DNA of 64,000 nt, from the NCBI RefSeq assembly GCF_001428825.1, contig NZ_LMIT01000011.1, forward strand, positions 337,502-401,501, given 5' to 3'. This stretch comes from Nocardioides sp. Root240 (GTDB lineage Bacteria > Actinomycetota > Actinomycetes > Propionibacteriales > Nocardioidaceae). A program made the position numbers and the translations under genes. The stretch's first letter is position 1. Each line of letters starts with the position of its first letter. Below the pieces are notes generated by a model that saw only the letters and a list, made by a program, of their open reading frames with translations, did no database searches and had not been told where the DNA came from. Positions 42,079-62,416 of this stretch are shown here, one piece after another.

Positions 42079-42092
42079 TAGAACACGTTATC
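42079..42092. promoter_or_regulatory. KstR-like half-matched operator
   Basis: TAGAACACGTTATC matches the T-n-n-AAC-n-n-GTT core of mycobacterial KstR sites except for the last conserved base. It lies 9 bases before the ATG of a KstD-like flavoprotein, where a repressor would block translation start or the promoter. The imperfect right half keeps confidence low. Confidence 0.35.
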
Positions 42093-44084: not shown

Positions 44085-44098
44085 TCTAGCCGAGAATG
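44082..44098. promoter_or_regulatory. Inverted repeat over the marR start codon
   Basis: CATTCT and AGAATG separated by five bases, extended by one further pair on the outer core. It lies between divergent marR and VOC genes, and its first three bases are the marR ATG. Probable MarR operator. Confidence 0.5.
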
Positions 44099-44135
44099 TT
44101 GACACATCCACGACTTCAGGAGCATGGTGGTTGAC

Positions 44136-44633
44136 ATGGCAACTATCGACATCGACGCGATCACCCGGGACCGGGAGCGGATCAAGAAGGAGTACCTCGC
44201 TCCCGAGGGCGAGCGGCCGGAGAGCAGCGCCCGCGGGATCCACCACGCGGCACTGCTGTCGTCCGACGTACGACGGACGGTCGAGTTCTACCAGGGCCTG
44301 CTCGAGTTCCCCCTGACCGAGATCTTCGAGAACCGCGACTACGCCGGCTCCGACCACTTCTTCTTCGACGTGGGCGTCGGCAACCTGCTGGCCTTCTTCA
44401 CGCTGCCCGGCCTCGACCTCGGGCCCTACCAGGAGGTCCTCGGCGGCCACCACCACATCGCGATCTCGGTGACCCGCGAGAAGTGGGACCTGCTGCGCGC
44501 CAAGCTCGACGACGCCGGGGTCGCGTACCACCTCGAGTCGAACGCCTCGCTCTACTTCCCGGGCCCCGACGGCGAGCGGCTCGAGCTGCTGGCGGACCCG
44601 CTCGGCGAGATGTACGGCACGAAGGTGCTGTGA
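44136..44633 (+). CDS. VOC family (glyoxalase/dioxygenase fold) protein
   Basis: 165 residues. Metal ligands are plausible at G-I-H-H-A (first His), H-H-H-I-A-I-S (second) and R-L-E-L-L-A (Glu), the arrangement of vicinal-oxygen-chelate enzymes. The N-terminal R-D-R-E-R-I-K-K-E-Y-L-A-P-E-G arm is not part of the fold. An ATG at 44124 would add four residues. Substrates range from methylglyoxal-type adducts to catechols; none can be chosen here. Divergent from marR, whose operator lies in the shared promoter. Confidence 0.88.
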   Translation: MATIDIDAITRDRERIKKEYLAPEGERPESSARGIHHAALLSSDVRRTVEFYQGLLEFPLTEIFENRDYAGSDHFFFDVGVGNLLAFFTLPGLDLGPYQEVLGGHHHIAISVTREKWDLLRAKLDDAGVAYHLESNASLYFPGPDGERLELLADPLGEMYGTKVL

Positions 44634-44755
44634 CGCCTGCTGTGACCCGTGCTGTGACAAAGTCCACTCGTCCCGATGGGCGGCCCGATTGCGCACCGAC
44701 CGGGGGCCCGGGCCTACGATCGAGCGGCTTTTGTCGACTGCTATAGGGGATTTCG

Positions 44756-48133: not shown

Positions 48134-49492
48134 TCAGCCGCCGACGGCCTTCTCCAGGGCCGTCAGCGCCTCATCGAGGTGGATCAGCATCCGCTGCAGG
48201 TGGGGCAGTGCGCGCCGGTCGCCGACGATGCCGAACGTCATCTGGTTGTCGTAGCGGGTCAGCGTGATGTTCATCGCCTGGGCCTCGGAGATCATCGAGA
48301 CCGGGTAGATGTCGGTCATCCGCGCGCCGTTGCAGTACAACGGCTGGTCGGGGGCGGGCACGTTCGAGATGATCAGGTTGAAGGCGTGGCGCGGCAGGGC
48401 GGTGACCCCTGTCAGCGAGGAGATGATGACGCCGCCCATGATGAGCTTGCTGACGGCGAGCACCTCCGCGGCCGACATGCGCGCGTAGCGTTCCTTCGCC
48501 GCGCGGGTCTGGTCCCGGATCGACTCCAGGCGCGCGACCGGGTCGTCGCCGGCCGTGCCCAGGTCGCAGAGCATCGCTCCGAAGGCGTTGCCCTCACCGT
48601 CGGCGAAGGACTCGCCCGCTCGGCGTACCGACACCGGGACCATGGCGACCAGCGACCTGTCCGGCAGGGAGCCGAGCTCCTCGAGGTAGGCCCTCAGGGC
48701 GCCGCCCGCCATGGCGAGACCGACGTCGTTGACGGTGCTGGCGGTGGCCCTCGCCACGGCCTTGAGCCGCTCGAGCGGCCACTGGTCGCCGGCGAAGCGC
48801 CGGGCTCCCCCCACCTTGACGTTCAAGGGCGAGGGGGGTGCCTCGAAGGGGATGCGGGCACTGTCGTCACGGGCCATGTCGACCAGCGAGCGGACGGTGC
48901 TCGCGCTGCGCAGGACCGGTGCGAGGCTCAGTCCGGCACCGTGGCGAGCGGCGCGGCTGCGGCGCCGGTGGTCGGGATCGGCCGCCCACGGCGGTCGCAG
49001 GGACCGTTCGCCGGGGTCGGCGCTCAGGCTCCCGAGCACGTGTCGGGCCAGCGACATGCCATCCGCTATCGCGTGATGGGTCTTGAAGGCGGTGGCGAAG
49101 CGCCCTCCCTCGAGGCCCTCGAAGACGTGGTACTCCCACAGGGGGCGCCGCCGGTCGAGCTGGACGCCGTGCTGGACCGACACCGCCTCGAGGAGCTCGC
49201 GGACCCGGCCCTGGCCGGGCAACGCCGAGCGCCGTACGTGGTGGTCGATCTCGACCGGCTCGTCGTCGACCCAGCGCAACGTGGAGGGCGAGAGCAGGCT
49301 CCTGGCCGGGCGCCGACGGAAGACCGGCTTCAGGTCGTCGCTCGCCAGCAGCTGCTGGAAGTAGTCGCCGACCCACTGCGCCGGGTCCGCCTCGTCGGGC
49401 GGACGGAAGAGCTGCAGCGTGATGACCTGGGCGGGCCGGCCGGCGGCCTCCCCCAGCAGGAACATCGCGTCGCCGAGGGCGATATTGCTCAT
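48134..49492 (-). CDS. Wax ester synthase/diacylglycerol acyltransferase (WS/DGAT)
   Basis: 452 residues. The catalytic T-H-H-A-I-A-D-G motif lies near residue 134. The N-terminal L-G-D-A-M-F-L-L-G-E, the central V-N-D-V-G-L-A-M and the late N-L-I-I-S-N-V-P-A-P segments are family landmarks. It makes storage or envelope lipids by esterifying long-chain alcohols or diacylglycerol with acyl-CoA. It is distinct from the WS/DGAT-like gene at 23521. The ATG at 49492 starts seven bases after the oxidase subunit gene. Confidence 0.93.
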   Translation of the reverse strand: MSNIALGDAMFLLGEAAGRPAQVITLQLFRPPDEADPAQWVGDYFQQLLASDDLKPVFRRRPARSLLSPSTLRWVDDEPVEIDHHVRRSALPGQGRVRELLEAVSVQHGVQLDRRRPLWEYHVFEGLEGGRFATAFKTHHAIADGMSLARHVLGSLSADPGERSLRPPWAADPDHRRRSRAARHGAGLSLAPVLRSASTVRSLVDMARDDSARIPFEAPPSPLNVKVGGARRFAGDQWPLERLKAVARATASTVNDVGLAMAGGALRAYLEELGSLPDRSLVAMVPVSVRRAGESFADGEGNAFGAMLCDLGTAGDDPVARLESIRDQTRAAKERYARMSAAEVLAVSKLIMGGVIISSLTGVTALPRHAFNLIISNVPAPDQPLYCNGARMTDIYPVSMISEAQAMNITLTRYDNQMTFGIVGDRRALPHLQRMLIHLDEALTALEKAVGG

Positions 49493-49499
49493 CGCGCGC

Positions 49500-49763
49500 T
49501 CAGCTCGCCACGCGGAGGACAACGAGCACGACGAGGGTGACGACGACGTAACCCTCGACCAGCAGCCTCAGCGCGAGCGGCGCGTCCCGCACCTCCATGA
49601 AGTGCAGCGCGACCAGGCGGACCTTGACGAAGGCGATGACGAGCAGCGCCAGGCCGACCGCGGTGGAGCCGCCGTGCTGCTCGAGACCCAGGACGGCGGT
49701 CAGCACCGTGGCGCCGACGAGGAACATCCAGACCGCGGTCTGGCGGTCGATGCGAACGGTCAT
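49500..49763 (-). CDS. Small cytochrome oxidase subunit IV/NorF-like membrane protein
   Basis: 87 residues with three hydrophobic helices (about 10-27, 35-55 and 65-85). The pattern F-V-K-V-R-L-V-A-L-H-F-M-E-V-R-D-A-P in the middle loop is the hallmark of the CyoD/COX4_pro/NorF-type small subunits. It directly follows the subunit III-like gene and probably forms an accessory module with it. No catalytic oxidase or NO reductase subunit is nearby. Confidence 0.85.
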   Translation of the reverse strand: MTVRIDRQTAVWMFLVGATVLTAVLGLEQHGGSTAVGLALLVIAFVKVRLVALHFMEVRDAPLALRLLVEGYVVVTLVVLVVLRVAS

Positions 49764-49768
49764 CGCGA

Positions 49769-50386
49769 TCACCTGATCAGGTAGAGCAACGGGAAGAGGA
49801 CCAGCCACAGCAGGTCGACCATGTGCCAGTAGATGCCGCCGCACTCCACGAACCTGCGCTGACCCTCGGTCGGCTCGGGTGTCCGTGCCACACGGAGCAG
49901 GAAGGCCACGACGACCGTGCCGATCACCAGGTGCGCGAGGTGGATCCCGGTGAAGACGAAGTAGTACATGAAGAAGTCGTTGGTCGCCCCCGTGTGGCCC
50001 TCACCGACGAGCAGGGAGTACTCCGCGACCTTGATCGCCACGAACCCGAGCGCGCACACCAGGGTGAGCGCGAAGAGGCGCGACGAGGCCGCGGTGCCGT
50101 CGCCGAGTCGGCGTACGCCGTGGACGACGAGGAGCGAGCCGGTCAGCAGCAGGGCGGTGTTGACGATGCCGAGCCACGGGTGCAGGTGCTGCTGCGCCGC
50201 GTCGAACATCGCAGGGTCCTGACCGCGGGTGACGGCGATGGTGCCGAAGAACAGGGCGAAGATCGCCATGTCGCCGAGGATGAAGACCCACAGCCCCTCC
50301 TCGCCGGGGATCCGGCCGCCGCGGCGGGGTGCCGGCGACCCGGACCCCGGCGGCGCGTGCAGCGTCGCCATCACGTCCGTACCCAT
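49769..50386 (-). CDS. Heme-copper oxidase subunit III/NorE-like protein
   Basis: 205 residues with five membrane helices. G-L-W-V-F-I-L-G-D-M-A-I-F-A-L-F-F near the N-terminus and Y-F-V-F-T-G-I-H-L-A-H-L plus G-G-I-Y-W-H-M-V-D-L-L-W at the end are the subunit III signature; a length near 200 suits NorE. The ATG is preceded by GGAGGT at six bases. Its promoter is shared with the divergent alpha/beta hydrolase and includes an inverted repeat. Confidence 0.9.
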   Translation of the reverse strand: MGTDVMATLHAPPGSGSPAPRRGGRIPGEEGLWVFILGDMAIFALFFGTIAVTRGQDPAMFDAAQQHLHPWLGIVNTALLLTGSLLVVHGVRRLGDGTAASSRLFALTLVCALGFVAIKVAEYSLLVGEGHTGATNDFFMYYFVFTGIHLAHLVIGTVVVAFLLRVARTPEPTEGQRRFVECGGIYWHMVDLLWLVLFPLLYLIR

Positions 50387-50414
50387 CCGTGCACCTCCAC
50401 GCCGGCGACCATAA

Positions 50415-50438
50415 CTAGACTTATCTTTTTTAGTCTAG
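50415..50438. promoter_or_regulatory. Inverted repeat operator candidate in the NorE/hydrolase divergent promoter
   Basis: CTAGACT (50415-50421) and AGTCTAG (50432-50438) are exact reverse complements separated by ten bases containing a run of T. The site sits in the only 63 bases between two divergent genes. A related T-run/TCTAG sequence occurs upstream of the yrbE/mce operon at 61494-61510. Confidence 0.6.
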
Positions 50439-50449
50439 GCTAGATCCTC

Positions 50450-51283
50450 ATGGAGAGGCAACCGTCTGCCGACAGCCCGCGGCCCGACACCCCCGGCCAC
50501 GTGCTGCTGCTGCACGGCATGGGCTGCGGCCCCTGGGTCTGGCGCGACGTCACGGCAGCGCTGCCGGCGCACCTGACGCCGGTGGCGGCGACGATCGCGG
50601 GACACCGCGGCGGGACCCGCCTCGAGCGGCGAGCCGACCGGCGCGCCCCGGACCAGATGCTCGACGACCTCGAGCGTCAGCTCGACGACCTCGGCCTGGC
50701 GAGGGTGCACGTGGTCGGGAACTCGCTCGGCGGCTGGCTGGCCCTGCGCCTGGCCGAGCGGGGCCGGGCGCTCAGCGCCCTCTGCCTGGCGCCGGCCGGA
50801 GGGTGGCGACCCGGGTCGCTCGGCGAGCGGATGGTCGTCTCGCGCTTCGTGGTCGGCCACCGGTTCGCCCGTCGGGTCGCCCGCAGCCCGCGTCTGCTCC
50901 GCAGCGCCGGCTTCCGCCGCACCATGATGGCGCCGGTCGCCCACCAGCCCGCCCGCATCCCGTACGAGGACGCGGTCACCTTCGTCAGCGACCTCGCCGA
51001 CTGCCAGGCGCTGCGGGCCGCCATCGGCCATCCCGAGGCCCGCGAGCTCGACGCGATCCTCCGGCTCGGCGCGCCGACGACGATCGCCTGGTCCGGCGAC
51101 GACAAGGTCCTGTCGGGGCCGTGGGCGCGGGAAGGCTTCGCCCACCTCGGGGCCGACGAGATCACGGTGCCCGGAGTGGGTCACCTGCCGATGCTCGACG
51201 ACCCCCGAGGCGTGGCGGCGCTGGTCGCTGCGCGCGTCAGCGGGTCTCTGCCGCCAGGACGGACAGCCTCCCGAGCTGGCTGA
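50450..51283 (+). CDS. Alpha/beta hydrolase
   Basis: 277 residues. The oxyanion segment L-L-L-H-G-M-G-C-G, nucleophile elbow G-N-S-L-G-G, acid residue region W-S-G-D-D and catalytic histidine in G-V-G-H-L-P-M-L-D give a complete triad. It could cleave an ester or C-C bond in a lipid or steroid pathway, given the mce importer nearby. Its last 47 bases overlap the convergent LLM oxidoreductase. Confidence 0.88.
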   Translation: MERQPSADSPRPDTPGHVLLLHGMGCGPWVWRDVTAALPAHLTPVAATIAGHRGGTRLERRADRRAPDQMLDDLERQLDDLGLARVHVVGNSLGGWLALRLAERGRALSALCLAPAGGWRPGSLGERMVVSRFVVGHRFARRVARSPRLLRSAGFRRTMMAPVAHQPARIPYEDAVTFVSDLADCQALRAAIGHPEARELDAILRLGAPTTIAWSGDDKVLSGPWAREGFAHLGADEITVPGVGHLPMLDDPRGVAALVAARVSGSLPPGRTASRAG

Positions 51284-52289
51284 CCCGCTCGGCGGGCTCG
51301 TCCGCGAGGGAGTTGAGCAGCAGGGTGCGCACGCCCGCATCCCAGAACTCCCGCAGCTGTCGCCGCAGCGAGTCCTCGTCGCCGATCAGGGTGACCGCCT
51401 CCACCAGCTCGTCCGGTACGGCGGCAGCTGCCTCCGCCTTCCGGCCGGACAGGTAGAGGTCCTGGATCTCCTTGGCCTCGGCCTCGTAGCCGTAGCGGCA
51501 GGCGAGCTGGTTGTAGAAGTTCTTGTCCCGCGCACCCATGCCGCCGACGTAGAGGGCGAGCTGGTTGCGGACCGACTGCAGCGCCTCGGGCGACGGCTCG
51601 CCGAGGTGGTAGTGGACCTGGAGCTGGATGTCGAGCTCGCCGAGGCCCGGGTCGCGCTTCGAGAAGCCCTCCTCGAGCGCCTCTCCCCACGCCTGCTGCG
51701 CCTTCTGGGGGTGGAAGAACAGCGGCTGCCAGCCGTTGGCGAGCTCGGCGACCAGGGCGACGTTCTTCGGGCCCAGGGCCGCGACGGAGATCGGGATCTC
51801 GCTGCGAAGGGGGTGGTTGATGATCTTCAGCGGCTTCCCGAGACCGGAGCCACCGTCCTCCTTGGTCAGCGGCACCGTGTAGTGCTTGCCGCGGAACTCG
51901 ACCGGCTGGCGCTGCCACACCTGCCGGCACACCTCGATCACCTCGCGTGTGCGGCCCAGCGGGGCGTCGTACTTGACGCCGTGGAAGCCCTCGATGACCT
52001 GCGGCCCGGAGGCGCCGAGGCCGAGGATGAAGCGACCGTCGGAGACGAAGTCCAGGCCCGCCGCGGTCATCGCCGTCAGCGACGGGGTCCGGGTGTAGAT
52101 CTGGAAGATGCTCGACATCAGCTGCAGCTTCTCGGTCTTCGCGGCGATGTAGCCGAGCTGGCTCACCGCGTCGAAGGAGTAGGCCTCCGCGACGCCGACC
52201 AGCTCGAGGCCGTTGCGCTCGTACTCCTGCAACAGCTCGACCGTCTCCGCGAAGCCGCCCGAGTAGTCGATGATCATTCCGAGGCGCAT
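51237..52289 (-). CDS. LLM class F420-dependent oxidoreductase
   Basis: 350 residues. It follows the luciferase-like fold: G-M-I-I-D-Y-S at the N-terminus, V-A-E-A-Y-S-F-D, R-F-I-L-G-L-G-A-S-G-P-Q-V-I-E-G-F-H (the family's central signature) and V-A-A-L-G-P-K-N-V. This subgroup usually uses coenzyme F420 in actinobacteria. The ATG at 52289 was preferred because the frame above it lacks family similarity. Likely a reductase or dehydrogenase acting on the imported substrate (inference). Confidence 0.9.
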   Translation of the reverse strand: MRLGMIIDYSGGFAETVELLQEYERNGLELVGVAEAYSFDAVSQLGYIAAKTEKLQLMSSIFQIYTRTPSLTAMTAAGLDFVSDGRFILGLGASGPQVIEGFHGVKYDAPLGRTREVIEVCRQVWQRQPVEFRGKHYTVPLTKEDGGSGLGKPLKIINHPLRSEIPISVAALGPKNVALVAELANGWQPLFFHPQKAQQAWGEALEEGFSKRDPGLGELDIQLQVHYHLGEPSPEALQSVRNQLALYVGGMGARDKNFYNQLACRYGYEAEAKEIQDLYLSGRKAEAAAAVPDELVEAVTLIGDEDSLRRQLREFWDAGVRTLLLNSLADEPAERVSQLGRLSVLAAETR

Positions 52290-52323
52290 GGCGCTCCTTC
52301 TGCGTCGTACCGGTTGGTGAGGA

Positions 52324-53091
52324 TCATCCTGCCGCACCCGCGACCGCGAGGTCCTCGACCTCGAGGCGGCGCAGCGCGTGCCACGTGAACCAGGTACCGA
52401 GGGCGGTGAAGGCGAAGAACTCGACGAAGACCACCCAGAAGCTGATCCCACCGTGCCAGGCGAACAGGCCCTTCTCCACGAACGGCATCACCGTCAGTGG
52501 CACGTAGCAGAACGCGGTGAAGAAGGAGAGATAGGCGAACCAGCGCGGGTACAGGCCCTGCGTGCGCCGATCCCGCAGGATCGCGACGCCGAGGGCGACG
52601 CTCTGCAGGGCAGAGCAGACGAACGTCGTGTCGAAGAACATCCAGCCGAAGTCGTAGAGGGTCTGCACCATCTCCGGGGAGCGGTCCTCGACCCGGAAGG
52701 CCGCCGTGATCCAGATGGTGGCGGGCGTGAAGGTCACCAGCCCGGTGAGCAGGCCGCCGATGACCTGGATGCCGGCGAGCGGCCCCATCGGGCCCTCGAT
52801 CCGCCCGATGACCTTGGAGATCGCCACGCTCCACGTCACGTAGAACGGACCGGCGAAGGCCATCATCACCATGCCGAGCGTGAGGCCGGTCTGGTGCTCG
52901 ACGAAGTAGGCGTGGATCTCCTGGGCGCTCCAGTCCTCGCCCGGCGGCGGCCAGAAACCGGCGAACACGGCGAAGCCGAGCAGGCCGAACAGGCAGTAGG
53001 ACCCGACGAGCAGCAGGGACACGCGCAGGGTGACGTAGTCCCCGTGCACCAGGTCGCGGTCGACGTTCGTACGGGGTTGCGTGGTCAGCAC
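52324..53091 (-). CDS. Multi-spanning membrane protein attached to the mce operon
   Basis: 255 residues from a GTG overlapping the mceF stop by seven bases, so it is the last gene of the mce operon. About six to seven helices; an aromatic G-F-W-P-P-P-G-E-D-W loop follows the first, and W-I-T-A-A-F-R-V-E-D-R-S-P-E lies in the middle. No family is recognised. Membrane proteins at this position are usually counted among accessory parts of the import system. Confidence 0.75.
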   Translation of the reverse strand: MLTTQPRTNVDRDLVHGDYVTLRVSLLLVGSYCLFGLLGFAVFAGFWPPPGEDWSAQEIHAYFVEHQTGLTLGMVMMAFAGPFYVTWSVAISKVIGRIEGPMGPLAGIQVIGGLLTGLVTFTPATIWITAAFRVEDRSPEMVQTLYDFGWMFFDTTFVCSALQSVALGVAILRDRRTQGLYPRWFAYLSFFTAFCYVPLTVMPFVEKGLFAWHGGISFWVVFVEFFAFTALGTWFTWHALRRLEVEDLAVAGAAG

Positions 53092-54260
53092 TTCGACACG
53101 TCGCCTTCTCGTCGGGCAGGGTCGTTCGGGCACGGCAGGTTCCGGGCGCCGCGGACGCCGCGTGGGTCGTTGTGGGGTGCTGTGCAGTAGATGAGCGGCG
53201 TGCGTCGGGGCGAGTTGTCGAAGGGCGAGGCCCAGTCCTTGCCGGGCAGGGCGCCCTGGACGCACTCGGGGGGCTTGTTGACATTCGCCACGGTGAGGCG
53301 CACCTCGTGCGTGGCGCTGTCGGGCAGGGTGACCGACTGCACGATGGAGGCGGCGAGGGGGTAGTCGCTCAGGGTCTGGGCGAGGTGGGCGTTGTAGGTC
53401 CGCAGCACCGCGAGCACGGGATTGGTGCGCGCCAGGAGCACGGGCAGCGAGACTGAGAGGTCGTCCAGGAAGGCGAGGGTCTGCTGGCTGAAGCCGGGTC
53501 CGCCCTCCAGGAGCCCACGCAGGTCCTCGTCCCCGGAACGGAGCTCGGTCGTGACCTGGTCGAGGCTGGCCGTCAACCGCCGGATGCCGTCGCCCTCCCC
53601 GTTGACGGTGGCCAGCACCGGGCCGACCTGGCGGAGCAGGGCCGCGGTGGGACGGAAGTTGACGTCCGCCTCGGCGATGAGGCGCGAGCTCGCGTCGAGG
53701 ATGGTCTGCAGGTCGCCGGCGCGGCCGGCGAGGGCCGCGCCGCTCTCGTCGACCAGCTGGGACAGCTTCTTCTCGTCGAGGCTGGCGACGAGCGCCTGCA
53801 CGTTGTCGAGCACGGGGCCGATCTCGACGGGGTACGACGTGCGGTCGACGGGGATGCGGTCGCCGTCAGCCAGTGCCGGACCGCTGCTCGCCGCCTCCCG
53901 AGGCGGGACGAGCGAGACGTACTGCTCGCCCACTGCGGAGCGGCTGTGGATCTCGGCGGTGACCTCGGCGGGGACCTCGACGTCGTCGACCAGGCTCAGC
54001 TCGGCGACGAGATGGTCACCCGAGAGCTCCAGGTCCTCGACCTTGCCCACGGGGTGGCCGAGGTAGACGACCTCGGCACCGGGGTAGAGGCCCGCCGCCT
54101 GCGCGAACTCGACCTGCACGGTGTGGCGGCCGATGCCGAGCTGTTCGGGCACCCGCAGGAAGGAGACCGCGAGCACGACCGTGCCGACGACGGCGGCGAT
54201 GCTGAACGCGATCAGCTGCTTCTTGATGATCGGGGCCGCGCCCTTGAGCAGGACCGTCAT
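53085..54260 (-). CDS. mceF: Mce family protein, sixth of operon (MceF position)
   Basis: 391 residues. One N-terminal membrane helix (about 17-36) precedes the MlaD/Mce beta-barrel domain (V-Q-V-E-F-A-Q-A-A-G-L-Y-P-G-A-E-V to about 130). A long helical region follows, whose hexamer forms the lipid tunnel. A Cys-containing C-terminal tail after residue 330 is typical of the last Mce protein. ATGA overlap with mceE. Confidence 0.93.
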   Translation of the reverse strand: MTVLLKGAAPIIKKQLIAFSIAAVVGTVVLAVSFLRVPEQLGIGRHTVQVEFAQAAGLYPGAEVVYLGHPVGKVEDLELSGDHLVAELSLVDDVEVPAEVTAEIHSRSAVGEQYVSLVPPREAASSGPALADGDRIPVDRTSYPVEIGPVLDNVQALVASLDEKKLSQLVDESGAALAGRAGDLQTILDASSRLIAEADVNFRPTAALLRQVGPVLATVNGEGDGIRRLTASLDQVTTELRSGDEDLRGLLEGGPGFSQQTLAFLDDLSVSLPVLLARTNPVLAVLRTYNAHLAQTLSDYPLAASIVQSVTLPDSATHEVRLTVANVNKPPECVQGALPGKDWASPFDNSPRRTPLIYCTAPHNDPRGVRGARNLPCPNDPARREGDVSKC

Positions 54261-55504
54261 CGTCCACCTGCCTTGTTGGTGCCGAGGAGGCCGCCGAGGA
54301 GCTCGGTCAGGCTGCTGGCGGGACCAGAGCTGCCCGTGCTGCCCGCGCCGGCCCCGGAGCCCTTCGGGGAACCCTTCGTCGAGCCCTGGGCACCACCCGT
54401 CGTGAGTCCGGCCAGGAGGCCCGACACGCCGGGGAGGAGTCCGCCGAGAAGGTTGCCCAGGTCGGGGAGACCGGGCAGACCGGGCACCCCGATCGATCCG
54501 TCGGGCCGGATGAACCCGTTCAGCAGGGAGGAGTTCGTCAGGTCGAGCGTGAGCGCGAGGTTGCAGTAGTCGCCGCGGCAGGCGTTCTGCACCGTCTCGG
54601 GGGCGAACGGGAAGGTGACGGCGAACCCCAGTGCGGAGACCGCGGAGTTCCCGGCGGCCCTGATCGACTGCAGCACGGGCACGAGGTCCTGGAGGTCCGC
54701 GACGAGGTCGTCCTTGACCCGGCCCACGAGGGGGGTCGCGACCTCGCTCAGGCGGGTCAGGGCGACCAGCGCCCTGGTCAGGTCGGGCCGGTTGCGGGCC
54801 AGGACGTCGAGCGCCGGGCCGATCTCGTCGAGGGCCGCGGTGATGGTGCCGCGGTCCCGGGCGAAACGCTGGGAGAGCCGGGCGACGTCGCGCACCGCGG
54901 TGAGGATCTCGCCGCGCTGTCCGTCGAGGGTGCCGACGAAGGAGTCCAGCCGGGGCAACAGGTCGGCGACGGCCCGGTCGTTGCCGCCGAGGACCTTGTT
55001 GAGCTCAACGGTGATGGTGGAGAGCTGCTCGAGCCCGCCACCGTTGAGCGCGAGCGACGCCGCGGAGAGCACCTGCTCGGTCGAGGGGTAGGCACGGCCG
55101 TGCTCGAGCGGGATGCGGTCGCCGCTGCGCAGCGCTCCCTCCGCCCGCGCGGGGGCGGTGAGCTCGACGTAGGCCGAGCCGAGGAGGGTGTTGACGCCGA
55201 CCTTCGCCAGGGCGTTGGCAGGCAGGTCGACGTCGCGCTCGAGGCTGAGGTCGGCCACTGCGTGCCAGTTCTCGACCCGTACCGCGGTCACGGTGCCGAC
55301 GGCGATGTCGTCGACCTTGACCTGGGCGTTGGGGGTGAGGGTGCCCACGTCGGGGAGCTCGACGGTGACCTTGATCGCGTCGTCACCGGTGCCCTTGCCT
55401 CCGGGCAGGGCCATCGAGTCGATGCCGTCGAACTTGCAGCCCGACAGCAGCAGCAGGCCGACCAGGAGGACCAGTCCCAGCCTGCGCAGGGAGGGTGGTC
55501 TCAT
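54257..55504 (-). CDS. mceE: Mce family lipoprotein (MceE position)
   Basis: 415 residues. The signal sequence ends in the lipobox L-L-S-G-C at about residues 19-23, as in LprK-type MceE proteins. The MlaD domain starts near 45 (I-K-V-T-V-E-L-P-D-V) and is followed by a helical stalk. The C-terminus is a Gly/Leu/Pro and Gly/Ser-rich tail. The ATG overlaps the mceD stop (ATGA). Confidence 0.93.
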   Translation of the reverse strand: MRPPSLRRLGLVLLVGLLLLSGCKFDGIDSMALPGGKGTGDDAIKVTVELPDVGTLTPNAQVKVDDIAVGTVTAVRVENWHAVADLSLERDVDLPANALAKVGVNTLLGSAYVELTAPARAEGALRSGDRIPLEHGRAYPSTEQVLSAASLALNGGGLEQLSTITVELNKVLGGNDRAVADLLPRLDSFVGTLDGQRGEILTAVRDVARLSQRFARDRGTITAALDEIGPALDVLARNRPDLTRALVALTRLSEVATPLVGRVKDDLVADLQDLVPVLQSIRAAGNSAVSALGFAVTFPFAPETVQNACRGDYCNLALTLDLTNSSLLNGFIRPDGSIGVPGLPGLPDLGNLLGGLLPGVSGLLAGLTTGGAQGSTKGSPKGSGAGAGSTGSSGPASSLTELLGGLLGTNKAGGR

Positions 55505-56658
55505 GCGGCACCTCCGGCGATGAGGAGCAGGAGCGCGTCCAGGAGCTTCTGCGACTGCGGGTTGTCCACGACCTTGCCGAGGAGGTCGCCGAGGAGCCGG
55601 TTGCAGAGCTTCTCGGCGCCGGCCTCGTCGGCCCCCGCCGCGCCGCCGATGGCACCGCAGATGAGCTGGCCCGGCGAGTGGATGTTGGCGCCGGTGAGGT
55701 TGACCCCGACGGCATTCTGACCCTGGTGGTAGGACTCGGTGAGGTTGGCCAGCGCGTTGGGCGCGACGTGGAGGATCTGTGCGAGGTCTCCCTGTTGCTT
55801 GTTGACGACCTGGACCAGGTCGGACAGGCGGGTGACCGCGGTGTCGAGGCCCTTGCGGTTGTCGCGGATGAAGGTCTCGACGTCGCCGACGGCGCCGCTG
55901 AGGTTTCTCAGCGCGCTGCGGACCAGGTGCTTGTCGTCGGCCAGCATCGCCGAGACGGCGTCCAGGTTGCGGATGAACTGGGCCATCTGGCCGTCGCTCT
56001 CGGCCAGGGCAGCGACGAAGACCTGCAGGTTGCGCACGACGGAGAAGGCGTCGTCGGCGCCGTCGTCCAGCACCCCGACCGCCGTGGAGAGGTCGGCGAT
56101 GGTCTGGTTGATCTTCGTGCCCTGCCCGTCGAGGGCAGCGGCCCCGGCGTCGACCAGGTCGGAGAGCGCACCCTTCTTGTTCGCTCCCCGCGGGCCCAGC
56201 GCCTCGGCCAGGCCGTTGAGCTGGTCCTTGATCTGGTCCCACTCCACCGGGACGGCGGTGTCCTTCAGCGCGATGGTCGCTCCGTCGGCCAGCTGCGCGC
56301 CACCGTCGTAGCGAGGCGTCAGCTGGAGGTAACGGCTGCTGACCAGCGAAGGAGCCACGATGACGGCCTTGGCGCCCTTGGGGATCTTCACGTCCGCGTC
56401 GACGTGGAACGCGACCCGGACCTTGCCGTTCTGGGGATCGATGCTGTCGATCTTCCCAACCGGTACGCCGAGCACCCGCACCTCGTCGCCGGCGTAGACC
56501 CCGTCGGTGCTGGGGAACCACGCCACGAGGTCGGTCCGCTCACGGTCGCGGAACCCGACGGTGAGCACCAGCACGGCGAGGACCGCCAGCGCCAGCAGGA
56601 TCCGCAGGCGGGGAGAGCCCAGCACACGACGCACGGGGGTGGGCATGGAGTGGCTCAT
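55501..56658 (-). CDS. mceD: Mce family protein, fourth of operon (MceD position)
   Basis: 385 residues. An N-terminal helix (about 19-35), the Mce domain with W-F-P-S-T-D-G-V-Y-A-G-D-E-V-R-V-L-G-V-P-V-G-K and a helical stalk with regular L/V heptads are visible. Two cysteines near the C-terminus (L-I-C-G and K-L-C-N) may form a disulfide. ATGA overlap with mceC on the upstream side. Confidence 0.93.
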   Translation of the reverse strand: MSHSMPTPVRRVLGSPRLRILLALAVLAVLVLTVGFRDRERTDLVAWFPSTDGVYAGDEVRVLGVPVGKIDSIDPQNGKVRVAFHVDADVKIPKGAKAVIVAPSLVSSRYLQLTPRYDGGAQLADGATIALKDTAVPVEWDQIKDQLNGLAEALGPRGANKKGALSDLVDAGAAALDGQGTKINQTIADLSTAVGVLDDGADDAFSVVRNLQVFVAALAESDGQMAQFIRNLDAVSAMLADDKHLVRSALRNLSGAVGDVETFIRDNRKGLDTAVTRLSDLVQVVNKQQGDLAQILHVAPNALANLTESYHQGQNAVGVNLTGANIHSPGQLICGAIGGAAGADEAGAEKLCNRLLGDLLGKVVDNPQSQKLLDALLLLIAGGAA

Positions 56659-57692
56659 CGCTGCCCCGCCTTTCCGAGCAGGCCGCTCAGGTCGATGCCG
56701 GACAGCCCCAGCTCGCCGAGATCGGGTTGGAGCAGGTTGCCGGGCAGCAGGTTGCCCAGGTAGGCGGAGAAGAACTCGCCGCTGGAGACCACTTCGCCGA
56801 GGCCGGTGGCGTAGACCGACAGTCCGCGCAGGGTCTCGCTGATGTTGGACTTGTTGGCCTGCAAGGTCGCGATCACCTTGTTCAGCTCCTTCAGCGCCGG
56901 TCCGATGGTGTCGTCGTTGTCGGCGACCAGGCCGCGGAGCTCGGTGGCCATCGCGGACAGGTTGGTCAGCAGCGCGGAGATGTCCTCGCGACGCTTGAGC
57001 AGCTCGGTGAAGAGCGTGTTGCCGTCCCTCATCAACGCCGTCAGGTCTCCGCTGCGATCAGCCAGGATGTCGCTGAACTGGTCGGCGTTCGCGAGCAGGC
57101 TGCGCAGGGAGTCGTCGCGACTGCTGATGGTCTGCGAGAGCCGGCTCATCCCGGTGATCGCATTGCTCAGCTCCGGGGTCGCGCCCTGCAGCGTTCCGGC
57201 GACCGTCTCCAGCGCGGAGGCGACCTGGTCGACGTCGATGTCCTGCGCCTCCTGCTGGAGGTCGGTCAGGGCGTCGTTGACGTCGTAGGGGACGCTCGCC
57301 CGTTCCATCGGGATCTGCGCCCCCTCCGCGAGGGCACCGTCGCCGTGCGAGGTGAGGACGAGCGCCTTGTCCCCCAGGACCGTCTCGACGCTGACGGCGG
57401 CCGTCGTCTTGTCGCCGAGGTCGATGTCGGTCTCGGTGAGCGCGAAGTCCACCCGGACGCCCTTGCCGTCCAGCTCCACCGTCCCGACGCGGCCGACGGT
57501 GAGTCCGCTGACACGCACCGGGTCCCCCTGCTTGATGCCGGCGGCCTCGGGCAGCATCACGCTGTACTTGCGGCCGAAGAGGCCCACGATGCCGTTGATG
57601 TTGAGGACGACGAGCACCATCACCAGCAGGGCCACCACGACCACCAGCCCCAGCGGGAGCGGGTTGCGCTCGCGGAACATCTTCATCGCCAT
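56655..57692 (-). CDS. mceC: Mce family protein, third of operon (MceC position)
   Basis: 345 residues. Start ATG at 57690-57692 preceded by GGGGAA. The order M-F-R-E-R-N-P, membrane helix (about 13-33), R-K-Y-S-V-M-L-P-E-A-A-G-I-K-Q-G-D-P-V-R-V-S-G-L-T-V-G is the usual Mce opening. The remainder is a long helical stalk. The gene lies 28 bases after mceB, the largest gap between mce genes here. Confidence 0.93.
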   Translation of the reverse strand: MAMKMFRERNPLPLGLVVVVALLVMVLVVLNINGIVGLFGRKYSVMLPEAAGIKQGDPVRVSGLTVGRVGTVELDGKGVRVDFALTETDIDLGDKTTAAVSVETVLGDKALVLTSHGDGALAEGAQIPMERASVPYDVNDALTDLQQEAQDIDVDQVASALETVAGTLQGATPELSNAITGMSRLSQTISSRDDSLRSLLANADQFSDILADRSGDLTALMRDGNTLFTELLKRREDISALLTNLSAMATELRGLVADNDDTIGPALKELNKVIATLQANKSNISETLRGLSVYATGLGEVVSSGEFFSAYLGNLLPGNLLQPDLGELGLSGIDLSGLLGKAGQR

Positions 57693-57720
57693 CAGCTGTT
57701 CCCCATCCTTCGGCCACCCA

Positions 57721-58743
57721 TCAGTTGCATCGTTCGAGCTGGCTGCGCACGACCGGGGTGCGGATCGTCTTGCCGCCCGGGCCACTGATCGCGACCTGGG
57801 CCGAGCAGAGGTAGAAGTTGAAGATGTTGCCGTGCGAGGCGATCCGGTCCAGCGTCTGGTAGGCGCCCGGCAGCGAGGCCAGCACCTTGTTGAGGGTCCT
57901 GGTGTTGGTGTTCAACAGCTTCGCGAGGTCCTTGACCGCGATCACGGTCTGCTTGAACGGCTCCCGGCCCTCGTGGAACAGGTCGGCCAGCGTCGCGGCC
58001 ATCTGGTTGATCGAGGTCACCGACGCGGCGATGGGGTCCTTGTCCTTCGCCAGGCCCGAGACCAGGGTCCGGAACTTCCCGATGGTCTGCCGCAGCTGGG
58101 CGTCACGGGAGTCCAGGCTGCCCAGCAGGACGTCGAGGTTGTCGATCAGCGACGTGATGGCCTTGCCGTCGTCGGCCAGGCCGTTGGTCAGGCTCCCGGT
58201 CCTCGCGAGCAACGACTCCACCGTTCCGCCGCGCCCCTGCAGGGTCGCGATCAGGTTCGATGCGAGCTCGTTGACCTGCCCCGGCTCCAGACCCCGGAAG
58301 AGCGGGCGGAAGCCGTTGAGCAGTACGTCGAGGTCCAGTGCCGGCGTCGTACGGTCGACCGGGATGGTGGCGCCGGCCGCGAGCGGAGCGCCCTCACCGG
58401 GCGGCTGCTGCAGCTCGAGGTACCGGTCCCCCAGCAGGTTCTCGTAGCGCACCAGCACCTGCGTCGCATCGGTCAGTGGCTGGTCCTCCTCGACGTGGAA
58501 GGCCACCTCGACCAGGTTCTCGCCCCCGTCCGCGACGGACAGTCCGTCGACCTGGCCGACCCGCACCCCGGCGACGCGGACCACGTCGCCGGCCTCGAGC
58601 CCGCTCGCGTCGGCCATCACCACGCGGTAGTCCTTGGTCGGCCCCAGCCGGGTCTCGCCGAGCGTGAGGTAGAGCAGCACGAGGATCAACGCTCCGACCG
58701 TGGCGAACACGGCCAGCCGGATCGCGTCAGCACGAACGTTCAC
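57721..58743 (-). CDS. mceB: Mce family protein, second of operon (MceB position)
   Basis: 340 residues from a GTG overlapping the mceA stop (GTGA). N-terminal helix, Mce domain with M-A-D-A-S-G-L-E-A-G-D-V-V-R-V-A-G-V-R-V-G, helical stalk, and two late cysteines (Y-L-C-S and E-R-C-N at the extreme C-terminus). Subunit of the hexameric periplasm-spanning lipid channel. Confidence 0.93.
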   Translation of the reverse strand: MNVRADAIRLAVFATVGALILVLLYLTLGETRLGPTKDYRVVMADASGLEAGDVVRVAGVRVGQVDGLSVADGGENLVEVAFHVEEDQPLTDATQVLVRYENLLGDRYLELQQPPGEGAPLAAGATIPVDRTTPALDLDVLLNGFRPLFRGLEPGQVNELASNLIATLQGRGGTVESLLARTGSLTNGLADDGKAITSLIDNLDVLLGSLDSRDAQLRQTIGKFRTLVSGLAKDKDPIAASVTSINQMAATLADLFHEGREPFKQTVIAVKDLAKLLNTNTRTLNKVLASLPGAYQTLDRIASHGNIFNFYLCSAQVAISGPGGKTIRTPVVRSQLERCN

Positions 58744-59828
58744 TGCGGGGTTCCTCGCTCCGGGACGGGGACCTGGCTGGGCTTGAGGCGAGGCAGGCCG
58801 TGGCAGTCGGGCCCACGGCCCTGTGGGTAGCCCGGCAGGTCGTTCGGGAAGGTGTAGCGGGACAGCTCCGAACGGACGCTGACCAACGCCCGCAGGGTGG
58901 CGTCGGTGCCTCCGATCACCTTCGCCATCGCCTGGCGCGTCACGTCCATGCCCTGGAGGAAGCAGGGCAGCTCGGTGGAGTAGGCCCGCAGGGTGGCGGC
59001 CGTGGGACGGGCCGAGGCCAGCAGGGTGGCGAGCGCATCGCCGTTCTCCCCCAGCAGGTTCTCCGCCCTGCCGCCGAGGAGGGAGAGGTCGACCAGCACC
59101 CGCGCCAGCGCCTTCTGCTCGTCGTTCACGGTGCCGGCCGTGACCGTGGCGTTGCGCAGGATCTCCAGCAGCGCCGGAGAGACCTCCACGGCGAGCCGAG
59201 CGAACCGGGCCACCTCGTGCAGGTCGCGCCGCAGCTGCGGCAGCAGCGGCTCCAGCCGCGTCAGGTAGGCATCGGCCTCGGCCGCGACCGACGCGATGTC
59301 GTCGCCGCGCCCCGACAGCGTCTGCGCCAGCACCGTCAACGTGCCGTTCAGGCTCGCGATGTCCACGCCGCTCAGCACCCGGTCCAGGCCGTCGAACACG
59401 GTGTTGATCTCGGTGGTCACCCCCGAGGCCTTGATGGTCGAGCCGTCGGCCAGGACCCCGCCAGCGGCACCCTTGGCGGCGGGCACCAGCTCGACGTACT
59501 TCGCGCCGAAGACGGTGGTGGCCCGGATCTCGCCGACCACGTCGGCGGGGATGTCGTGGATCTTGTCGCGGTCGATCTCCAGCACGATGCGCACACCGTC
59601 ACCGGCACGCTCGACCGAGCCCACCCGGCCGACCTCGACACCGCGCAGCTTCACCTTGCCGCCCGGGTCCATCACCAGGCCGGCACGCGAGGTCTCCAGG
59701 GTGACCTCCGCGGGGTTCGCGAACGCGCGGTTGTACAACGCCGCCGTCACCGCGACCGCCGTGGCGATCACCAGCACCAGGCCGATCCCGGCCAGGCGCA
59801 GGGTGCGCGGGCTCGTCACTCTGCTCAT
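58740..59828 (-). CDS. mceA: Mce family protein, first of operon (MceA position)
   Basis: 362 residues. After one membrane helix, the Mce domain carries S-R-A-G-L-V-M-D-P-G-G-K-V-K-L-R-G-V-E-V-G, the most conserved variant, as expected for MceA. A helical stalk and a proline-rich C-terminus with two cysteines follow. It starts four bases after the yrbEB gene, so the permease and substrate-channel genes form one transcript. Confidence 0.94.
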   Translation of the reverse strand: MSRVTSPRTLRLAGIGLVLVIATAVAVTAALYNRAFANPAEVTLETSRAGLVMDPGGKVKLRGVEVGRVGSVERAGDGVRIVLEIDRDKIHDIPADVVGEIRATTVFGAKYVELVPAAKGAAGGVLADGSTIKASGVTTEINTVFDGLDRVLSGVDIASLNGTLTVLAQTLSGRGDDIASVAAEADAYLTRLEPLLPQLRRDLHEVARFARLAVEVSPALLEILRNATVTAGTVNDEQKALARVLVDLSLLGGRAENLLGENGDALATLLASARPTAATLRAYSTELPCFLQGMDVTRQAMAKVIGGTDATLRALVSVRSELSRYTFPNDLPGYPQGRGPDCHGLPRLKPSQVPVPERGTPQ

Positions 59829-59832
59829 CAGG

Positions 59833-60672
59833 TCAGCCGCCCAGGTGGAAGGTGTTGAAGTTGGAGTAGATGGCCATCGCGATCAGCAGGTTGACGATCA
59901 TCACGCCCGAGAGGGACGCCCGCACCGAGCGGCCGACGGCCTCGCCCACACCGGCCGGTCCGCCGGTGGCGTTGTAGCCGTAGAAGGTGTGCACGAGCAT
60001 CACCACGATCACCATCCCGAGCACCTGCACGTAGGAGAAGACGATGTCCATGGGGTGCAGGTAGAGGAAGAAGTAGTGGCTGAAGTTGCCGCCGCCGACG
60101 TCGTAGAAGAAGACGAGGAGCAGGTAGTCGGCAAGGAAGCCGCCGAGCGTCGCGAACACGTAGAGCGGAGTGATCACGATCATCCCCGCGGTGACGCGCG
60201 TCGTCGCGAGGTAGGGCAGCGAGGGGATCGCCATCACCTCGATCGCGTCGATCTCCTCGCTGATCCGCATCGCGCCGAGCTGCGAGGTGGTCGCGGCGCC
60301 GAGCGTCACCGACAGGGCGACCCCGGCCAGGAGGGGGGTCGAGAGCCGGGCGGTGAAGAACGCAGCCAACAACGGGCTCAGCGACCCGACGCCCAGGCTC
60401 GACGACGACTCGAAGCCCTGGGCGGCCGCCACGGCGCCGGCGAAGAAGGTGATCGAGGCGACGATCACGACCGAGCCACCGACGAGCGCCAGGGCGCCGG
60501 TGCCGGTGCCGAGCTCGGCGATCAGCTTGACGATCTCGCCAGGGTGCCGGCGCAGCGCCCTCGGGATCCCGCCCAGCACGCGGGCGTAGAAGAGGCCCTG
60601 GGTGCCGATCGAGTCCAGCGCACGCAACGGCGCGCGACGGATCGCCTCGAGCTTGGGAGCAACGGAAGACAT
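59833..60672 (-). CDS. yrbEB: YrbE-type ABC permease (MlaE family), second of pair
   Basis: 279 residues with five to six helices. The MlaE pattern is clear: F-Y-A-R-V-L-G-G-I-P, the E-Q/E-G-like loop region R-I-S-E-E-I-D-A-I-E-V-M-A-I-P and a final hydrophobic segment. The E-E-I-D-A loop contacts the ATPase (MceG/Mkl), whose gene is not in the window. Import direction is established for this family in mycobacteria. Confidence 0.94.
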   Translation of the reverse strand: MSSVAPKLEAIRRAPLRALDSIGTQGLFYARVLGGIPRALRRHPGEIVKLIAELGTGTGALALVGGSVVIVASITFFAGAVAAAQGFESSSSLGVGSLSPLLAAFFTARLSTPLLAGVALSVTLGAATTSQLGAMRISEEIDAIEVMAIPSLPYLATTRVTAGMIVITPLYVFATLGGFLADYLLLVFFYDVGGGNFSHYFFLYLHPMDIVFSYVQVLGMVIVVMLVHTFYGYNATGGPAGVGEAVGRSVRASLSGVMIVNLLIAMAIYSNFNTFHLGG

Positions 60673-60683
60673 CTCGGAGCCCC

Positions 60684-61451
60684 TTACAAGACCGCGAACT
60701 GGATGAGGCTGATGGTCAGACTGACGGGGACCAGCACGGCCACGGTGATGACCACCGCCTGGTTGACGGCGTCGCCGACGCCCTTGGACCCGCCCGCGAC
60801 GTTGAGGCCGCGGTAGCAGGCGATGATCGCGGCGATCAGGCCGAACACGAACGCCTTGAACATGGAGAACATCAGCTCGGGGATGCCCGTGAAGAGAGGG
60901 ATGCTCGCGACGTAGGCGCCGGGCGTCACTCCCTGGAGGTAGACCGAGAAGAAGTAGCCGCCGGCCAGGCCGCCGGCACAGATCAGCACGTTGAGGACCA
61001 GGGTCACCAGCACGGCCGCCACGATGCGGGGGACGACGAGCCGCTGGATCGGGTCGATGCCGAGCACCTGCATCGCGGCGATCTCCTCGCGGATCGTCCG
61101 CGCCGCGAGGTCCGCGCACATGGCGGTCCCGCCGGCCCCGGCCACCACGACGACCGTGACGAACGGGCCGATCTGCTGCACGGAGGCAATGCCGGCGATG
61201 CCTCCGGAGAGGTCCAACGCGCCGAGGTCCTTGAGCAGCAGGTTGACCTCGAAGATCACCAGCAGCGTGAAGCCGAGCATGACCAGCAGCGTCGGCACGA
61301 GGGAGACCCGCGCGATGAACCACGACTGCTGCACGGCCTCGCGCCACGAGAACCGCTTGGTGAACATGATGACGAGGGCGTCCAACGCCATCGCCAGCAC
61401 GTCGCCGAGCGCACGCGTCGGCTTTGCCGCAGCCTCGACTGCTGACGCCAT
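60684..61451 (-). CDS. yrbEA: YrbE-type ABC permease (MlaE family), first of pair
   Basis: 255 residues. The coupling loop reads T-I-R-E-E-I-A-A-M-Q-V-L-G-I-D-P, the canonical MlaE motif, between hydrophobic helices. The ATG at 61451 has GGGGGA at three to four bases and was preferred over an ATG seven codons upstream without a ribosome site. First gene of the yrbEA-yrbEB-mceABCDEF operon. Confidence 0.93.
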   Translation of the reverse strand: MASAVEAAAKPTRALGDVLAMALDALVIMFTKRFSWREAVQQSWFIARVSLVPTLLVMLGFTLLVIFEVNLLLKDLGALDLSGGIAGIASVQQIGPFVTVVVVAGAGGTAMCADLAARTIREEIAAMQVLGIDPIQRLVVPRIVAAVLVTLVLNVLICAGGLAGGYFFSVYLQGVTPGAYVASIPLFTGIPELMFSMFKAFVFGLIAAIIACYRGLNVAGGSKGVGDAVNQAVVITVAVLVPVSLTISLIQFAVL

Positions 61452-61493
61452 GGTTCCCCCTGCCTGGTTCATCGTGGGCGCTTCCGTCGTTCC

Positions 61494-61551
61494 ATCTTTT
61501 TTGAATCTAGATTAAGATGAGGACGACTACGGAACCATAAGACGACTTATG
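61494..61551. promoter_or_regulatory. Palindromic operator candidates between the mce operon and the SDR gene
   Basis: Two symmetric sites lie in the divergent gap. AATCTAGATT (61504-61513) is preceded by ATC and six T, resembling the site at 50423-50438. CATAAG-ACGA-CTTATG (61536-61551) is a perfect six-base inverted repeat. The A/T-rich character stands out from the flanking coding DNA. Likely binding sites for a regulator controlling lipid uptake. Confidence 0.55.
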
Positions 61552-61618
61552 ATCGTGTGTCAAGCATCACTGCGCGGCCGATCCAGCAGGACGGCCGACG
61601 GCCATGGAAGGGGGCCCG

Positions 61619-62416
61619 ATGGACCTGGGACTGAAGGACGCACGCGTGCTGGTGACCGGCGGCGCCTCCAACATCGGACGGGGGATCGTGCACGCCTTCG
61701 CCGCCGAGGGCAGCCGGGTCGTGCTCGCCGACGTCGACGAGGAGCAGGCCGAGCGGGTGGCCGTCGAGGCTCTCGAGCGGGGCGCCGCGGCCGTCGAGGT
61801 CGTGGCCGGCGACCTGACCACCGAGGGCGAGGCCCAGCGCGCCGCCGACCGCGCGGTCGAGACCTGGGGTGGCGTGGACGTCCTGGTGAACAACGCCGGC
61901 TGGAGCGTGCCGGGCTTCATCGCGAAGAACACCGACCGTGCGAACTGGCAGAAGACGGTCGAGATCAACTTCTTCACCGCCATCGCCGCCACCCAGGCGG
62001 TGCTCGGTCCGATGCGCGAGCAGGGCCGGGGCTCGATCGTGTTCATCGCCAGTGAGTCCGCCTTCGGGCAGATCCGTCAGGGCGTCTACGGGGCCACCAA
62101 GGCCGCCGTCGTCGCCCTCGCCCGCACCACCGCCCGGGAGCACGGGCGCCACGGCATCCGCTCCAACATCGTGTGCCCCGGCCTCGTCGTCCCCGACGGC
62201 CCCGAGGCCGTGGGTTCGAAGAGCCTGTGGGCGGTCGGCAAGGACAACGTCTTCAACGACGACCAGGCGCAGTACCTGCTCAAGGACACTCCCCTCGGCC
62301 GCCTCACCTCCGCCGAGGACGTCGCGGGCGCCGTGCTCTTCCTCGCCTCGGAGCGGATGTCGCGCCAGGTCACGGGACAGCTCTTCAGCGTCAGCGGCGG
62401 CTACACGATGCCCTGA
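61619..62416 (+). CDS. Short-chain dehydrogenase/reductase
   Basis: 265 residues. T-G-G-A-S-N-I-G-R-G (13-22) binds NAD(P), N-N-A-G is the structural motif, and the catalytic Ser and Y-x-x-x-K lie in A-S-E-S-A-F-G and Y-G-A-T-K. D-V-D-E at the end of the second strand favours NAD. The ATG at 61619 has AAGGGGG five bases upstream; an ATG at 61604 is less likely. Divergent from the mce operon, it probably oxidises a hydroxyacyl or sterol intermediate (inference). Confidence 0.93.
   Translation: MDLGLKDARVLVTGGASNIGRGIVHAFAAEGSRVVLADVDEEQAERVAVEALERGAAAVEVVAGDLTTEGEAQRAADRAVETWGGVDVLVNNAGWSVPGFIAKNTDRANWQKTVEINFFTAIAATQAVLGPMREQGRGSIVFIASESAFGQIRQGVYGATKAAVVALARTTAREHGRHGIRSNIVCPGLVVPDGPEAVGSKSLWAVGKDNVFNDDQAQYLLKDTPLGRLTSAEDVAGAVLFLASERMSRQVTGQLFSVSGGYTMP

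Follow-up and report, generated by a model that had tools for sequence, protein, structure and literature searches.

The 64,000-nucleotide stretch of Nocardioides sp. Root240 analysed here (the window; positions 337,502 to 401,501 of contig NZ_LMIT01000011.1, hereafter C11) contains two divergent promoter gaps in a lipid-uptake region. The first separates a COX3/NorE-like subunit gene (49769..50386, minus strand, PF00510) from an alpha/beta hydrolase gene (50450..51283, plus strand, PF12697) with orthologues in 6 of the 146 other genus genomes; the second separates a minus-strand YrbE/MlaE gene from a plus-strand SDR dehydrogenase gene (61604..62416, PF13561/PF00106). The original prediction held that the two gaps share a T-run/TCTAG string, each copy part of an inverted repeat, through which one regulator may coordinate the region. 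Direct reading and a pattern scan confirm the strings at 50423..50438 (ATCTTTTTTAGTCTAG) and 61494..61510 (ATCTTTTTTGAATCTAG), both on the plus strand and both within the divergent gaps, and our analysis suggests that they belong to the operators of a TetR-family repressor encoded just past the window end.

The string itself is not the conserved unit. The two copies are the sole matches to the pattern in the 5,134,593-base genome (reversed-pattern control 0; chance expectation in the window 0.00, for a pattern written after both sites had been seen), and the literal form, ATCTTTTTTN{2,3}TCTAG, was rejected as a motif on its absence from all 146 other genus genomes. The predicted inverted repeats are partly borne out: both strings touch one, CTAGACT-N10-AGTCTAG at site 1 and CATCTT...AAGATG around TCTAGA at site 2, yet the two repeats are not alike. 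For that reason they were set aside as operators in favour of AATCTA-N3-TAGATT, which aligns both sites with relatives. Among those relatives the conserved unit is this 15-bp dyad with T-rich left and A-rich right flanks; the predicted string corresponds to the left flank plus the left half of the dyad, and it is as such a flank that the T run survives. Candidate operator 1, whose left flank and first half make up the first string, thus occupies 50432..50446 (AGTCTAGGCTAGATC, two mismatches to AATCTANNNTAGATT), and candidate operator 2, a degenerate copy with three mismatches, occupies 61504..61518 (AATCTAGATTAAGAT). A third candidate (G000:C11:401812-401826, G000 being the Root240 genome) was located there with the relaxed pattern TTTTNNTCTANNNTANA, one mismatch allowed; it lies about 310 bp past the window end (C11:401501), in the gap between a CitE-like lyase gene and an acyl-CoA dehydrogenase gene. 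The relaxed pattern was not retained as the motif, as it misses site 2 and adds one weak match on contig 16.

All three positions are conserved in orthologous promoters. An alignable element, ARTCTA-N3-TARAYT, stands just upstream of the hydrolase orthologue in five of six relatives, TTGAA[TC]CTRGATTAAG is kept in 5/5 relatives that have the same yrbE//SDR gap, and a site is present in 8/8 relatives that have the CitE//acyl-CoA dehydrogenase gap. This conservation is what speaks against the view that the two sites, in AT-rich gaps, are alike by coincidence and that site 2 especially has no function. The three mismatches of site 2 would fit such a view, as would the modest signal of the window taken alone, where three matches with at most three mismatches compare with 0.57 expected and 2 of 100 shuffles reach three, a weakly significant excess. 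Both positions are nonetheless kept in the relatives' orthologous gaps, though the exact string is unique to Root240, and we regard coincidence as the least probable of the explanations considered. The weight of the dyad evidence comes from genome-wide and cross-genome scans, not from the window alone.

A TetR gene, which the original prediction had suggested might lie just beyond the window, is found 1.6 kb past its end (C11:403071-403712), the next gene after the acyl-CoA dehydrogenase that candidate operator 3 precedes; a palindromic candidate operator is thereby present at the TetR's own transcription unit. The 213-aa product is a single-domain TetR with an N-terminal helix-turn-helix domain (PF00440, residues 30-76, 51.9 bits against a cut-off of 24, the single TetR_N match) and a C-terminal ligand domain (PF17932 TetR_C_24, 58.8 bits, cut-off 26.4). 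Seventeen NCBIfam TetR equivalog models (ScbR-type, FadR, SACE_7040 and others) match it at E<=0.001 and none reaches its cut-off, the best scoring 72.2 bits against 150. The gene occurs in 12 of 215 genus genomes (E<=1e-35), including all seven hydrolase carriers (Root240 and six others, of 147 searched), where it lies 13-34 kb from the hydrolase. Dyads with at most one mismatch occur in 18 of the 215 genomes, namely 10 of the 12 with the TetR and 8 of the 203 without it (Fisher p 6e-11), a comparison that is partly circular, six of the 12 having supplied the first seven sites and the consensus having been fixed after scans of loci from all 12 had been viewed. Seven exact dyads are spread over seven genomes, all of which carry the TetR. 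The reversed pattern occurs in 11 genus genomes, none with the TetR (11/203), and since this frequency is on a par with that of the dyad among the same genomes, the eight dyads found without a TetR look like chance. In one genome without a TetR match at E<=1e-35, two one-mismatch dyads lie within 6.2 kb of each other (G131:C47:134 and 6294); this pair may belong to a more distant regulator, or to chance.

Within the Root240 genome the redefined dyad is strikingly concentrated, as a genome-wide motif scan shows. Only eight copies with at most two mismatches exist in 5.13 Mb (reversed control 0), and six of them fall in C11:387933-432800 (binomial p ~1e-11, for a 45-kb span chosen after the fact); two of these six had been used for a first matrix and four were new. 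Site 2, with its three mismatches, is not among the eight. Of the two copies outside the cluster, C10:449370 includes TAGAACCTGTTCTA, a KstR-like box, and the other is C2:131915. A second matrix was built from 38 hand-picked sites of nine other genomes, drawn from scans with the first matrix (which held two Root240 sites) and from the genus dyad scan; in the hand picking some similar-scoring matches were omitted and one or two weaker ones included. Applied to 116 kb of Root240 sequence, with places less than 12 bp apart counted once, it finds nine places scoring at least 13, all within C11:387933-439446, and two further places at 12.0-12.3, one of which overlaps a stronger place. A Markov null gave, on average over 20 simulations, 0.2 windows at or above 12 and 0.1 at or above 13. 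Site 2 scores 19.9, and seven of the nine places are outside called open reading frames (ORFs); the other two are within the first 90 bases of called ORFs, whose starts are taken to be over-extended.

The TetR and the dyad also travel together outside the genus. With the TetR sequence as query we obtained 75 loci of named genomes, the best among the matches listed, a scope that applies to all counts from these loci; eight (Nocardioides, a Marmoricola metagenome-assembled genome and a Propionibacteriales one) were set aside, leaving 67 from other genera, mostly Mycobacterium, Mycolicibacterium and Nocardia, with Antrihabitans, Amycolatopsis, Thermocrispum and others. None of these loci was used to build the 38-site matrix. 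At a threshold of at least 18, sites are present in 58 of the 67 against 6 for the reversed sequence, and 60 column-permuted dyads in the same loci gave a mean of 4.9 and a maximum of 31. The expected bias toward intergenic DNA is seen as well: 120 of the 126 other-genus sites lie outside coding DNA, with the first 60 bp of an ORF counted as outside, in loci of which coding sequence fills 76%. These 126 sites carry a T-rich left flank, with 39-63% T from position -6 to -1, and an A-rich right flank; the T run is on that account a real but secondary part of the element. In an order-wide search the TetR was found in 15 of 391 genomes and 3 of 40 genera (E<=1e-45), a set that was used through six loci from two other genera, three with a site and three without. 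In one of these genera, from the same family, all three TetRs (58-60% identity) have AATCTGTGTTAGATT just upstream. Together with the lack of sites at the more distant TetRs of the other genus (47-50% identity, see below), this makes the site seem tied to the close relatives of this TetR. On plasmids of Rhodococcus opacus PD630 and R. qingshengii the site stands between the ferredoxin and TetR genes of a cluster annotated with Rieske alpha and beta subunits, an AMP-ligase, enoyl-CoA hydratases, a thiolase with an OB-fold protein, a ferredoxin and reductase, and the TetR.

How such a site might act is suggested by its position relative to promoter elements. In a set of 166 distinct sites, read in both orientations at 41 offsets after duplicate 55-bp windows and windows near locus ends had been dropped, 29 of 37 occurrences of TTGAC fall at -20/-19 relative to the dyad. 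This puts them 18 or 17 bp ahead of its central TAnnnT, and the operator would therefore cover the -10 box. A second, smaller cluster of TTG[AC] at -15/-14 (14 and 7) would pair with the right half, TAGATT; the highest TTG[AC] count (47, at -3) simply reflects the flank that belongs to the dyad. Start codons are most frequent 5-8 nt past the dyad. On this geometry the -10 boxes of both divergent promoters often appear to lie under one operator, and several of the genes appear to be leaderless. Operator 1 itself overlaps a candidate -10, TAGGCT, that ends 8 nt upstream of the hydrolase ATG, and the hydrolase gene is probably leaderless. With TAnnnT -10 and -35 boxes built into the site, one might ask whether any repressor is needed, the sequence being simply a shared AT-rich promoter with a -10 box and an A/T spacer. 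We consider this highly improbable: a symmetric 15-bp element exceeds what a promoter needs, eight genome-wide copies at two mismatches or fewer are not most promoters, the dyad tracks the presence of one TetR (with the partial circularity noted above), and in the same loci column-permuted dyads turn up far less often.

A more serious alternative, which we still regard as unlikely, is that the dyad is an operator but serves another TetR of the cluster, or an Mce3R-type tandem double-TetR paralogue. Another TetR gene does lie in the Root240 cluster (C11:416601-417197, PF00440), as does a probable further one that is TetR-like by its N-terminus only (C11:440042-440632), and both count against assigning the sites to the first TetR; double TetRs whose halves are 42-48% identical to it exist in three relatives (G033, G091 and G093). 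The two other Root240 TetRs have counterparts in only 2 and 1 of the 11 loci from relatives and in 0 and 6 of the 67 other-genus loci, a comparison biased because the loci were picked through the first TetR and span only parts of the clusters. No double-TetR match is present in the Root240 genome at E<=1e-35, and the Mce3R operator is reportedly asymmetric (PMC11667970). The tandem frames themselves encode 447-487 aa with an Mce3R-like architecture and stand beside the same clusters (G033:C1:541152-542351, G091:C1:1578276-1579463 and G093:C1:727457-728686, in loci L044, L046 and L048); they are possible relatives of the origin of double TetRs.

Several further observations weigh against a repressor encoded at C11:403071-403712. 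Site 1 has the lowest score of the nine places, 13.2, below the threshold of 18 used for other genera, and site 2 is a poor dyad whose counterparts score 12-19 in relatives by the first matrix. The G035 hydrolase, which sits behind another gene, has no upstream site. Nine of the 67 other-genus loci, including three of four Gordonia loci, have no site at 18 or above; the 126 sites comprise 94 different 15-mers and are not independent, because many are orthologous promoters; and a 28.6-kb stretch of an M. avium plasmid has two sites of at least 18, neither next to the TetR. In a third genus, three TetRs of 47-50% identity have no site in their 3.6-kb loci, where nothing scores above 10. Two genus genomes with the TetR, G001 and G051, have no site with one mismatch or fewer, and only a variant just upstream of the TetR. 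Here the TetR orthologues are more distant (loci L057 and L056, 53-54% identity), and the variant dyad AAT[CT]TGTATTAGAAT precedes the TetR match by 22-31 bp, possibly an operator shift.

On balance, the sites observed are concentrated in the cluster, are conserved, co-occur with the TetR and show a -35/-10 geometry. Together these findings make it very probable that both sites are operators of the one TetR-family repressor encoded at C11:403071-403712, which appears to control a whole cluster for the uptake and breakdown of a lipid-like compound. The predicted coordination by a single regulator is supported once the motif is redefined from relatives, all of the checks suggested for it having had a favourable outcome. 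Binding, repression, autoregulation and a ligand we infer as follows. A TetR dimer would bind the 15-bp dyad AATCTA-N3-TAGATT, within which the -10 hexamer would be either the central TAnnnT, 17/18 bp from a TTGAC -35, or the right half TAGATT; because the dyad contains this hexamer, the bound repressor would exclude RNA polymerase and, in a divergent gap, would often do so at both promoters. The repressor should also limit itself, because the acyl-CoA dehydrogenase-tetR unit is headed by the same dyad. A pathway intermediate, most likely a CoA thioester, would then release the repressor and switch on together YrbE/Mce import, the hydrolase, the LLM oxidoreductase, flavin and Rieske oxygenases, acyl-CoA ligases and beta-oxidation. 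The CoA thioester is a likely inducer because solved relatives of the TetR include a regulator of fatty-acid metabolism and KstR2; for a FadR-like TetR such a ligand is plausible by analogy.

Nine units of Root240 are headed by sites: the COX3-like//hydrolase, yrbE-mce//SDR and CitE-like//acyl-CoA dehydrogenase-tetR gaps, a flavin monooxygenase, a ferredoxin with its reductase, gene C11:415325-416533, an acyl-CoA ligase with Rieske alpha and beta subunits after it, a thiolase//unknown gap, and gene C11:438532-439467, which looks like an SDR. Many of these genes have the same neighbours in relatives, where several also retain the site. Two N stretches lie near the flavin monooxygenase promoter (C11:410151-410460). 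The predicted left-hand target block of operator 2 (51237..61472, minus strand) comprises an LLM F420-dependent oxidoreductase (51237-52451), five Mce/MlaD-domain ORFs (53-60 kb, PF02470) and two YrbE/MlaE permeases (59833-61347 and 60684-61472); the SDR gene would be its right-hand target. Between operator 2 and the SDR gene, at 61519-61600, relatives share a block ACTTATGGAA (ACTTATGATC in Root240) and also GTGTCAAGCRTCAC, which reads TTGACAC on the minus strand and could be the -35 of yrbE; these extra conserved blocks may be the site of a second regulator or else the mce promoter. To the right of operator 1 the predicted target is the hydrolase gene, and to its left the COX3/NorE-like gene, followed on the minus strand by a COX4-like gene (49500-49844, PF03626) and a WS/DGAT acyltransferase (48134-49522, PF03007/PF06974). 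COX3/COX4-like genes are also found near the hydrolase in G033, G091, G093 and G035; this conserved proximity, the one basis for placing the orphan oxidase subunits under control of the repressor, supports their membership of the regulon without proving it. The NCBIfam matches shown for Rieske alpha, the CoA ligases and the CitE-like protein all fall below their cut-offs.

A two-site observation now becomes a testable regulon that comprises a single repressor gene, a 15-bp operator and some nine predicted sites spread over about 50 kb, with counterparts of these sites in several genera. The operator provides a handle on membership of a single pathway that would include Rieske and flavin oxygenases, acyl-CoA ligases, ChsH2-like and thiolase proteins, a CitE-like lyase and Mce import, and it would tie an Mce transporter to a specific catabolic programme. 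With the same TetR, cluster and operator present in R. opacus PD630, a laboratory strain, the regulon is directly testable there. A bolder proposal, on which our judgement is close to evenly divided and inclines slightly against, is that this is an undescribed TetR regulon shared by Nocardioides, Mycobacterium, Nocardia, Rhodococcus (also on plasmids) and Amycolatopsis. The symmetric centre of the operator would itself be the -10, one dyad thereby shutting off both promoters of a divergent, partly leaderless pair, and the repressor would sense a CoA thioester of an undescribed pathway coupling Mce import, Rieske and flavin oxygenases and the orphan oxidase pair. Among the open-licence PMC papers listed in literature searches we recognised none on such a regulon, and the spelled-out dyad has no match there; the 30 mycobacterial TetR motifs of PMC4482099 are logos, outside such a text search.

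Several known TetR systems resemble this one in part. KstR regulates steroid and mce genes in sterol catabolism, and its box, TnnAACnnGTTnnA, differs from the dyad; KstR itself is ruled out by the NCBIfam model NF033703, which gives 28.4 bits against a cut-off of 280. A KstR-like box, TAGAACACGTTATC, does stand at 42079-42092 of the window, just upstream of an FAD-dependent gene (42101-43624, PF00890) that looks like a 3-ketosteroid dehydrogenase gene, and a separate steroid regulon may border the dyad regulon. Nearby, in or near a MarR-type ORF (43611-44696), a perfect inverted repeat with 5-bp arms, ATTCT-AGCCG-AGAAT (44083-44097), may be the site of that regulator itself. One of the best solved relatives is PDB 3whb (49 bits), the fatty acid metabolism regulator FadR, a Bacillus-type TetR; the NCBIfam FadR model reaches 51 bits, far under its 200-bit cut-off, and the cluster described here, unlike a FadR regulon, extends beyond fatty-acid genes to oxygenases and Mce transport.

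Three further comparisons draw on published operators. KstR2, a TetR repressor of cholesterol catabolism, likewise acts through a short palindrome placed close to its own gene, in the divergent gaps of a catabolic cluster, but it is ruled out by its operator, AnCAAGnnCTTGnT (PMC3068626), unlike the ARTCTA-N3-TARAYT of our sites; solved KstR2 is matched at 37.8 bits only. BkaR (Rv2506/MSMEG_4718) is an autoregulated TetR repressor of acyl-CoA genes that include a citE and a fadE, as here, with the operator GTTA(N)T(N4)A(N)TAAC (PMC3920632), from which the Root240 sites differ, and it too is ruled out. Mce3R of M. tuberculosis, a distant relation (PDB 9b7y, E 9e-10), is a TetR-type repressor of an mce operon and lipid genes, but as a 406-aa double TetR acting at two asymmetric 25-bp sites (PMC11667970) it does not correspond to a 213-aa protein with a single TetR_N and a symmetric 15-bp dyad. 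On our best reading of the sequences, the Root240 system would be an ordinary kind of TetR regulon, autoregulated and serving an acyl-CoA catabolic/Mce-import cluster, with an operator that is distinct from those of KstR2, BkaR and Mce3R as published.

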